Part shown: positions 28,084-30,836 of the stretch, piece after piece
Layout of the letters: the number at the start of each line of letters is the position of its first letter
Position numbering within the stretch: position 1 is the stretch's first letter
Assembly (NCBI RefSeq): GCF_029674545.1
Contig: NZ_CP121354.1
Coordinates: 5,403,001-5,467,000, forward strand
Length of the DNA stretch: 64,000 nucleotides
Source: Mesorhizobium sp. WSM4904
GTDB taxonomy: Bacteria > Pseudomonadota > Alphaproteobacteria > Rhizobiales > Rhizobiaceae
Direction: 5' to 3'
The notes under the pieces: generated by a model
The model's input: only the letters and a program-made list of their open reading frames with translations
What the model was told of the DNA's origin: nothing
Databases searched by the model: none
Made by a program: the position numbers and the translations under genes

Positions 28084-29004
28084 ATGACGGATACGCTCGA
28101 CATGCCGGAAAAGCTCGCCGAGGGCGGCATCGCCGATACTGCGGCCGAGCGTACGCTCGGCATCGCGCTGGTCTCGGCGTCGGCCGTCGCCTTCGCGCTC
28201 ACCGGCGTGCTGACCAAGTCGATCCACGCCGATCCGCTGACCATCACCTGCTGGCGCGGTTTCTTCGGCTCGATCCTGATCACCCTTTATGTGATTTGGC
28301 GGCGGCGCCGCTCGGGCGGGCGCGAGAGTCTGCGGCTCGGCTGGCGCGGCTGGCTGCTGGCGGTCGAAGGCGCCGCGGCAAGCATCGCCTTCATCTCGGC
28401 CTTCAAGTTCACCTATGTCGCCAACGTGGCGGTCATCTATGCGACCTCGCCCTTCATCGCGGCACTGCTTTCTTTCCTGCTGGTGCGGGAAAAATTCCGG
28501 CTGCAGACGATGCTGGCGGCGGCCGTGTCGCTCTGCGGCGTCGCCATCATGGTGGGCGGCGGCCTCGGCAGCGGCCATCTGTTCGGCGACGGGCTGGCGC
28601 TTTTGATGACCACCGGCAGCGCGCTTTACATGATCATGGTGCGCGCCTTCCGCGATACGCCCGTCGTCTGGGCCGGCGCGGTGTCCGCCTTCCTGCTCTT
28701 CGTGCTCGGCTGGTTCGTCACCGATCCGCTTGCCGTGTCGACCCGCGACGTGGTGCTGCTCGCCACCTTCGGCTGCTCCTTCGCGTTGGCCTCGATCCTG
28801 TGGACGGAAGGCTCGCGGCTCATCCCCGCCGCCGAAGCCGGCCTGCTCGGCTCGGCGGAGGTACCCTTCGCCATCCTCTTCGCCTTGCTGTTCCTCGGCG
28901 AAATCCCGCCGATCGCCAGCATCATCGGCGGCGCCATCGTGCTTTGCGCTGTCTTCGCGCATGCCGGGCGCGACTGGATGAAGGCGAAATCGGCGCGTTC
29001 CTAA
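28084..29004 (+). CDS. EamA/DMT-family transporter
   Basis: 306 residues, two EamA repeats: FTYVANVAVIYATSPFIAALLSFLLVREKFRLQTMLAAAVSLCGVAIMV, and later IPAAEAGLLGSAEVPFAILFALLFLGEIPPIASIIGGAIVLCAVFAH. It is only distantly similar to the preceding transporter. It is probably exported with it in one unit, 46 bases apart. The polar N-terminus (MTDTLDMPEKLAEGGIADTAAER) is cytoplasmic. The substrate is unknown. Confidence 0.85.
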   Translation: MTDTLDMPEKLAEGGIADTAAERTLGIALVSASAVAFALTGVLTKSIHADPLTITCWRGFFGSILITLYVIWRRRRSGGRESLRLGWRGWLLAVEGAAASIAFISAFKFTYVANVAVIYATSPFIAALLSFLLVREKFRLQTMLAAAVSLCGVAIMVGGGLGSGHLFGDGLALLMTTGSALYMIMVRAFRDTPVVWAGAVSAFLLFVLGWFVTDPLAVSTRDVVLLATFGCSFALASILWTEGSRLIPAAEAGLLGSAEVPFAILFALLFLGEIPPIASIIGGAIVLCAVFAHAGRDWMKAKSARS

Positions 29005-29023
29005 AAATTATTTTCGCGGTCAC

Positions 29024-29048
29024 GGAACCATCATCAGACTCAGGCATT
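29024..29048 (+). promoter_or_regulatory. Putative general-stress (EcfG-type sigma) promoter
   Basis: GGAAC at 29024-29028, then 18 bases, then TT at 29047-29048, matching the GGAAC-N18/19-TT pattern described for alphaproteobacterial general-stress sigma factors. Its spacing places the transcript start at about 29055, right before the stem-loop of the sRNA-like element. Confidence 0.6.
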
Positions 29049-29054
29049 GTTAGA

Positions 29055-29138
29055 TCGACGGGTCACCCCCCAAGTCCCCCCAAACCCCTCGACCCGTCCG
29101 ACTAGAAGCCGACCCGCAAAAAGGTCGGCTTTTTCTTT
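29055..29138 (+). ncRNA. gsrN: GsrN-like small RNA with C-rich loop
   Basis: About 84 bases. Stem 1 is GACGGGTC (29057-29064) with GACCCGTC (29091-29098), extendable by two pairs around a bulge. It presents a ~26-base loop with two CCCCCC runs (29066-29071 and 29076-29081) and one CCCC run. Stem 2 is AAGCCGACC (29106-29114) with GGTCGGCTT (29123-29131) and a T-rich tail, a rho-independent terminator. The arrangement of EcfG-type promoter, C-rich 5' stem-loop and terminator is that known for GsrN of Caulobacter, which regulates katG and other mRNAs by C-rich-loop pairing. The name is inferred from architecture, not from homology search. Confidence 0.7.
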
Positions 29139-29156
29139 GGAAAGCGCAAAGCGCCT

Positions 29157-30011
29157 TCAGGCCGGCAGTGCCAGGCCGCCGGCGAGAAGCTCGGCCAGAT
29201 CGCGCGCCGGCCGGTCGGCCTCCCGGCCGAGCCGGATGGCGAAGCTGGCGACCGGCACCGGCGGCAGGCCAAGCTCGCGCGGCGCCTCGACGATGCCTGA
29301 ATGGGCAAAGCGCTGTGTGCGCAGGGTCAGCGCGATGCCGGCATTGACCGCGGTGCGCAGGCCGGCAAGGCTAGCGCTGCCGGCGGCGATGCGATAGCGC
29401 CGGTGGGCGGCGTCGAGCGTATTGAGCGCGGCCTCCCTGAAGCCGCAATAGGGGTCGAGCAGCGCCAGCGGCACCGCCTCCTGCCGGGTCGCCAAGCCTT
29501 TTTCCGAGCAGAGCCACAGCATCGACTCGCTGATCAACGCCACTTCATCCGGCGATGGGGCATGGCGCATGGTGATCCCGAGGTCGAGCTGGCCTGCCTG
29601 CAACGCCGACCCGAGCTCCAGGGAGCGGCCGACGCGCAGCTCGATCCTGACTCGCGGGTGGCTGGCGGCAAAGGCCCTGAGCAGCTCCGGCAAGCCGTGA
29701 TCGGCAAAGTCCTGCGTCGTGCCGATGGCGATGCGGCCGCCGGCTCGCGCCCCTTTCAGCGCCAGCCAGGCCTCGGTGTGGACGGCAAGGATACGCCGCG
29801 CATGGCCGACAAGGTCTTCGCCGGCCGGCGTCAGGCCGCGCCCCCTGCCCTGCACGACGAGCAGCGGCTCGCCGACGATTTCTTCCAGTCGCTGCATCTG
29901 CGCCGTCACCGCGGACGGCGAACGGCCGACAGCGGACGCCGCCCTGGCCAGCGAGCCGCCATCGACGAAGGCGAGGAAGGTTTTGAGCAGATCGGGATCG
30001 AGCGTTTCCAT
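29157..30011 (-). CDS. LysR-family transcriptional regulator
   Basis: 284 residues. N-terminal winged helix: LLKTFLAFVDGGSLARAASAVGRSPSAVTAQMQRLEEIVGEPLL, the LysR HTH, then a 190-residue co-inducer-binding domain. It is divergent from the tautomerase gene, with 111 bases between the start codons; a LysR typically controls such a divergent neighbour. A near-perfect dyad TACTTCG-N7-CGAAGTA begins at the LysR start codon. The 3' end converges on the sRNA terminator. Confidence 0.88.
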   Translation of the reverse strand: METLDPDLLKTFLAFVDGGSLARAASAVGRSPSAVTAQMQRLEEIVGEPLLVVQGRGRGLTPAGEDLVGHARRILAVHTEAWLALKGARAGGRIAIGTTQDFADHGLPELLRAFAASHPRVRIELRVGRSLELGSALQAGQLDLGITMRHAPSPDEVALISESMLWLCSEKGLATRQEAVPLALLDPYCGFREAALNTLDAAHRRYRIAAGSASLAGLRTAVNAGIALTLRTQRFAHSGIVEAPRELGLPPVPVASFAIRLGREADRPARDLAELLAGGLALPA

Positions 30012-30530: not shown

Positions 30531-30542
30531 AGGGCACGCCTC

Positions 30543-30732
30543 CCCCTTCTCCCCCTGTGGGAGAAGGTGGCCGAGCGAAGCTCGGTCGGATGAGGGGTGT
30601 TGGACGGAGTGAGACGTCGCAAGTTTAAGTACCTAAAAGCATTTGACTTTCCGGTGCCTCATTTCTTCCAGCACCCCTCATCCGTCTCGGCGCTGCGCGC
30701 CGATCCACCTTCTCCCACAAGGGGAGAAGGGG
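30543..30732. repeat. Palindromic repeat (CCTTCTCCC...GGATGAGGGGTG family)
   Basis: The left arm CCCCTTCTCCCCCTGTGGGA ... GGATGAGGGGTG (30543-30600) and the right arm CACCCCTCATCC ... GGAGAAGGGG (30672-30732) are complementary, each arm with its own internal hairpin. The gap 30531-30836 holds this element and the start region of the next gene. Confidence 0.88.
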
Positions 30733-30836
30733 ACGCCGCGCCACCTCCACATTGACCTTCCCCCCACTTCCGCTACCCTCTGTCGTCGAAGCGGTCGCCA
30801 AGAGCCGCGCCCTGGAGGACGTTGGGAGAGAGCGGC

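Follow-up and report, generated by a model that had tools for sequence, protein, structure and literature searches.

The 64,000-nt stretch of Mesorhizobium sp. WSM4904 DNA that we analyzed (the window) contains a small RNA gene at positions 29024-29137 of the + strand, confirmed by sequence comparison, in which a predicted EcfG-type general-stress promoter is followed by a hairpin with a C-rich loop and an intrinsic terminator. By the same comparison, the RNA is a member of a real family of general-stress-type small RNAs without a match in Rfam. We consider it likely (a probability of about 0.8) that the gene is transcribed on its own into a trans-acting small RNA that serves the general stress response, and the best reading of its predicted parts is that it works like GsrN of Caulobacter. 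Identity with GsrN is not supported by the features that we compared, namely the katG leaders, proximity to the general stress response (GSR) genes, and the matches elsewhere in the class. What is known of the general stress response in Alphaproteobacteria concerns mainly its sigma factor. If the RNA belongs to this response, a post-transcriptional arm of the kind described in Caulobacter would exist, in another form, throughout a large family to which nitrogen-fixing symbionts belong.

The gene and its parts

By the open reading frames of the window, the intergenic gap at 29005-29156 lies between a gene on the + strand (28084-29004, with its stop at 29004) and a convergent gene on the - strand (29157-30011). 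From their sequences we take these neighbors to be an EamA-family transporter and a LysR-family regulator, and they serve here as context only. This arrangement agrees with an earlier note on this DNA, which had placed a small RNA between the second of two EamA genes and a convergent LysR gene.

The -35 element GGAACC (29024-29029, with GGAAC at 29024-29028) starts 19 nt past the EamA stop, and the -10 element CATTGTT is located at 29045-29051, both on the + strand. Together they form GGAAC-N16-CATT, which we take to be the promoter motif of EcfG; the GGAAC-N18-TT that the earlier note had called an EcfG-type promoter is the identical motif. The RNA would be about 84 nt long on the + strand, from a predicted 5' end at 29055 to 29138. 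Hairpin 1 (29057-29098) has an 8-bp stem formed by GACGGGTC at 29057-29064 and GACCCGTC at 29091-29098, and it encloses a 26-nt loop (29065-29090), the likely pairing region, which reads C6 (29066-29071), AAGT, C6 (29076-29081), AAA, and C4 (29085-29088). The intrinsic terminator (29106-29137) consists of a 9-bp stem, AAGCCGACC at 29106-29114 with GGTCGGCTT at 29123-29131, and then a T run. The stem with a loop of about 26 bases holding two CCCCCC runs and one CCCC run, and the rho-independent terminator, can thus both be read where they had been proposed.

The 84-nt RNA folds at -30.7 kcal/mol against a mean of -16.6 for shuffled sequences (z -5.59), and none of the 200 shuffles was as good, while the opposite strand of 152 nt had no fold better than its shuffles (z 0.03). 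Searching with 4227 Rfam models at the gathering score gave no matches anywhere in the window. With R2, a covariance model of the family that is described below, the RNA was the only match within the window at E < 0.5. The loose motif GGAAC-N27-55-CCCC-N2-20-CCCC occurs at 38 places in the genome and at 58 in the reversed control, and because the bare motif is no more frequent than in the control, it is conservation that gives evidence that the gene exceeds chance.

Conservation within the genus

A DNA search matched the RNA in 60 of the 61 genus genomes, 59 of them with one match each (the window's genome included) and one with two pieces at contig ends. The sole genome without a match is G013 (4.5 Mb). 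We read 58 loci, of which 57 are distinct, after leaving out G014 and dropping one locus that was split between contigs. GGAACC was found in 58/58 loci, and the -10 element follows GGAAC after 16 nt in 57 of them (CATT in 56, CGTT in one) and after 17 nt in the remaining one. Over the 57 distinct loci, mean column identity was 1.00 for GGAACC, 0.996 for CATT, 0.94 for the loop, and 0.99 for the 3' arm of the terminator with its T run; lower values were found for the promoter spacer (0.78), the 20 nt before GGAACC (0.72), and the 40 nt past the terminator (0.43). The upstream EamA gene was matched in 55/57 loci and the downstream LysR gene in 44/57.

Within the loop, the first C run is variable, with three to seven C in most loci and interruptions in a few distant ones. 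In nearly all loci the second run has five to seven C (one locus has ten), and it is followed by AAA or AA and then CCCC in nearly all loci. A reading of the locus as a small protein was ruled out because the loop differs by single bases among species.

The genus alignment was not fitted to the structure, and 97.7% of its cells are paired in the register of the predicted stems, compared with at most 49.4% when the register is slid. Cells in which both partners had changed numbered 30, compared with 6.7 in shuffles, and 0/500 shuffles were as high. A second measure on the same unfitted alignment, the number of further pair types, was below all 500 shuffles and counts against covariation. For hairpin 1 alone, 98% of the cells are paired and 3/8 pairs show compensatory change within the genus; for the terminator stem, 97% of the cells are paired.

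The literature that we searched, with supplementary files and most subscription journals outside the search, held no report of this RNA in the portions available. Among the 40 intergenic candidates given for M. huakuii 7653R in the accessible part of that report (PMC5596092), none fits the RNA in strand, place, and gene orientation, an indirect comparison that rests on the distance to tmRNA in 17 genomes and assumes that gene order is conserved in 7653R. By our hand calculation, the RNA is on the strand opposite the tmRNA and about 1.3-2.2 Mb away from it on the circle in 17/17 genomes.

Relatives in other genera of the family

We searched 394 genomes of the family with R1, a covariance model that covers the RNA and excludes the promoter. 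R1 matched 60/394 genomes in 28/109 genera, and eight of the 60 belong to the window's genus. We read every one of the 54 places that lie in other genera. GGAAC-N18-19-TT was found 26-35 nt upstream of the match (near promoter) at 38/54 places, against a chance background of 0.3%, and 56-100 nt upstream (far promoter) at 5/54, against a background of 1.4%; the other 11 places had neither. These backgrounds are the share of qualifying positions in the loci read (54 R1 and 40 R2 places). The counts support the conclusion that the predicted promoter has been kept in other genera, although the model used for the search held only the RNA.

R2 combines 17 genus loci with 37 of the 38 near-promoter loci, in an alignment fitted to R1; its members were picked by their promoter, and the promoter itself is outside the model. 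Across genera, this fitted alignment shows change on both sides in 15/17 pairs, with compensatory change in 7/8 pairs of hairpin 1 and in 8/9 pairs of the terminator stem. R2 matched 119/394 genomes of the family, a tally that includes promoterless matches and other RNAs. We read 40 of the best 41 new places and found a near promoter at eight, a far promoter at 11, and neither at 21, and because these 21/40 are without a promoter and some are another type of RNA, we do not use the R2 tally as an estimate of distribution. The promoterless matches of both models (11/54 for R1 and 21/40 for R2) include other RNAs. Taking R1 and R2 together, the near promoter occurs at 46 loci from 20 genera outside the genus, and the far promoter at 16 loci from 10 genera. 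L116, counted here among the 46, has an elongated body with one additional hairpin and is perhaps of the far type.

Several other types of locus were noted along the way. L102, L115, and L383 are single-hairpin relatives with GCAACC instead of GGAACC as the -35 element, at about the usual spacing. L101, L380, L386, L390, L400, and L413 have hairpins with C-rich loops (e.g., GTCCCCAAACCATCCCATCCCC) and a terminator with no GGAAC upstream, and they are perhaps a separate family of C-rich RNAs. In two genera (L388, L389, L391, L395-L398, L404, L405, and L409), the R2 match is the last part of another RNA that carries a CTCCTCCC loop upstream of the matched part. These RNAs with the CTCCTCCC loop resemble RNAs of the anti-Shine-Dalgarno type.

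The two-hairpin form and the general stress response genes

The predicted folds of all 16 far-promoter RNAs have two hairpins with CCCC in their loops, followed by a terminator, and in two genomes both the near and the far form are present. Three of the 16, all from one genus, are beside phyR and convergent to it, with an EcfG-type promoter (L393 at 1163-1288 and L402 at 1174-1299 on the + strand, and L411 at 1263-1386 on the - strand). This two-hairpin form beside phyR fits the description by Tien et al. 2018, in the part of the text available (PMC5869019), and the three are probably the GSR-linked, GsrN-like RNAs that have been predicted in the literature. From the same description, the window's RNA has the EcfG-type promoter and the C-rich loop in common with the GSR-linked Rhizobiaceae RNAs of Tien et al. 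2018, and it differs from them in having one C-rich hairpin and no linkage to the GSR genes (PMC5869019).

We built a model of the two-hairpin form (R3) from nine diverse far-promoter RNAs, and its sensitivity is limited. At E up to 0.1, each of the 39 genus genomes searched had weak R3 matches. Among the genus matches listed (30 loci), 17 are at the known coordinates of the small RNA, and the other 13, all of which were read, contain no two-hairpin RNA: two correspond once more to the window's RNA, and 11 resemble ordinary terminators or the ends of coding regions. The best R3 match in G013, when read out, was likewise no two-hairpin RNA. Far-type RNAs that were not used to build R3 score 27.5-50.9 bits, L116 scores 57.8, and the best genus match other than the small RNA scores 36.3; these scores overlap, so a distant two-hairpin RNA may still be present in the genus.

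The window's genome carries phyR, nepR, and ecfG. They are located at 1.83 Mb and the small RNA at 5.43 Mb of the 6.65-Mb contig, so that 3.05-3.6 Mb separate them. In the 10 kb around the GSR genes, we found no C-rich RNA with a promoter and no R2 match, and the single R3 match there was weak (12 bits, E 0.09). Searching 385 genomes of the class with R2 yielded 16 matches besides the window's own, and 0/16 had a near or far promoter. One of the 16 resembles part of a tRNA by eye.

Comparison with GsrN

GsrN of Caulobacter is described, in the available text (PMC5869019), as having a general-stress promoter, a C-rich 5' loop, and an intrinsic terminator in an RNA of about 100 nt. The window's RNA is like it in all of these respects, with a predicted general-stress-type promoter, a 5' hairpin that exposes a C-rich loop, an intrinsic terminator, and a comparable size. 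It is unlike GsrN in several others. Its loop contains three C runs, whereas the GsrN loop is described with six tandem C (PMC5869019, as far as available); the katG leaders in its genus have no G tract; and its gene adjoins EamA and lies at least 3 Mb away from the GSR genes. Among the 385 class genomes searched, the model of its RNA family finds no promoter-bearing relative outside the taxonomic family.

The earlier note had called the RNA GsrN-like and had described the C-rich loop of GsrN as pairing with G-rich leaders such as that of katG. katG is present in 25 of the 29 genus genomes searched, and a run of at least four G occurs in 0/25 of the leaders (-150 to +30). Pairing of the loop with these leaders did not exceed that with shuffled ones (z -0.66 to +1.62). 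Pairing with katG was therefore not borne out here, and we disfavor katG as a G-tract target. The likeness to GsrN holds for architecture, promoter, and size, and it fails for the katG G tract, for GSR proximity, and for a promoter at the class matches. The katG result cautions against assuming a shared target from a shared RNA design.

For these reasons we regard it as unlikely that the RNA is a true orthologue of Caulobacter GsrN that mainly activates katG through its C-rich loop, a possibility that overlaps in part with our preferred explanation. Its layout is the one described for GsrN in the text available (PMC5869019), and this is set against the 25/25 katG leaders without a G tract, the absence of a promoter at all 16 class matches, and the great distance from the GSR locus. 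Proximity to that locus is the criterion used by Tien et al. outside the Caulobacteraceae, although C. crescentus is likewise an exception, according to the same source (PMC5869019).

Possible targets

We also sought other sites in the genome that are complementary to the C-rich loop. The complement of the loop core, with up to three mismatches, has 83 matches in the window's genome and 62 in the reversed control, which is mildly more and no clear excess. Setting aside the complement of the gene itself and one member of an overlapping pair leaves 81 sites, of which 34 are located immediately ahead of or on a possible start codon (of an open reading frame of at least 60 codons). Since these start-codon sites come with no control and no conservation comparison, we claim no target from them. 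G6 tracts before ATG numbered 140, compared with 41 in the control, and 13 of the matches listed share GGGGGGAGATYRGATG and resemble one repeat.

Proposed function

In our preferred reading, that of an independent general-stress small RNA acting in trans, RNA polymerase bound to EcfG would transcribe the RNA from GGAAC-N16-CATT, and transcription would end at the intrinsic terminator. The stable hairpin would present the three C runs single-stranded, and these could pair with G-rich stretches of target mRNAs, in leaders, ribosome-binding sites, or coding sequence, raising or lowering the expression of the targets under stress. The promoter motif, together with what is known of GsrN and PmaR, makes transcription in the general stress response and action on G-rich mRNAs the best reading. 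Both GsrN (PMC5869019) and PmaR of Agrobacterium (PMC6234868) pair with G-rich mRNA by way of an exposed C-rich loop, by the parts of these papers available. PmaR, like the window's RNA, has a stem with a single-stranded C-rich loop; it peaks in stationary phase and has positive and negative targets that it reaches through the loop, and the likeness is drawn from its description (PMC6234868, available text). GspR (SmelC775) of Sinorhizobium is also trans-encoded and accumulates in stationary phase, and it is unlike the window's RNA as described in the accessible text (143-144 nt, three stem-loops, and homologues in Sinorhizobium/Ensifer; PMC5928217). In S. meliloti, predicted sigma-E2 promoters are located upstream of 23 small RNAs, by the portion of that study available, so stress-controlled small RNAs are a known kind (PMC3616915).

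The RNA might instead titrate an RNA-binding protein with its C-rich loop. The A-containing spacers of the loop (AAGT and AAA) are as conserved as the C runs and there is no proven target, which would suit such a role, but the C-rich-loop RNAs GsrN and PmaR act by base pairing, as described in the text available (PMC5869019, PMC6234868), and we consider titration distinctly improbable.

In other genera, a homologous EamA gene is found within 300 nt upstream in 20/46 near-promoter loci, compared with 0/16 far-promoter loci (flanks of about 0.9-1.5 kb were compared). The least probable alternative is that the RNA is a 3'-UTR product or the terminator of the EamA gene and not a gene of its own: the short distance from the EamA stop to GGAAC and the 20 loci with EamA directly upstream are in its favor, but the promoter is retained at a fixed spacing, in 26/46 near-promoter loci those flanks lack an EamA match in the first 300 nt upstream, and the C-rich hairpin is retained though unnecessary for termination.

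More tentatively, and with rather less than even confidence, we suggest that the Rhizobiaceae have a modular family of general-stress RNAs, in which an EcfG promoter precedes either one C-rich hairpin or two and the genes have homes beside EamA or phyR. The single-hairpin form with its three C runs could then be a broad regulator acting through G tracts that replaces the GSR-linked RNA in the window's genus and has targets other than katG.

Another feature of the window

At 30533-30742, between a tautomerase-like gene and the next gene, the window contains two G/C-rich intergenic copies in opposite orientation. Their 38-nt arms are 87% complementary and an inner 36-nt pair is 78% complementary, and the feature resembles an intergenic repeat of a mobile or palindromic kind.
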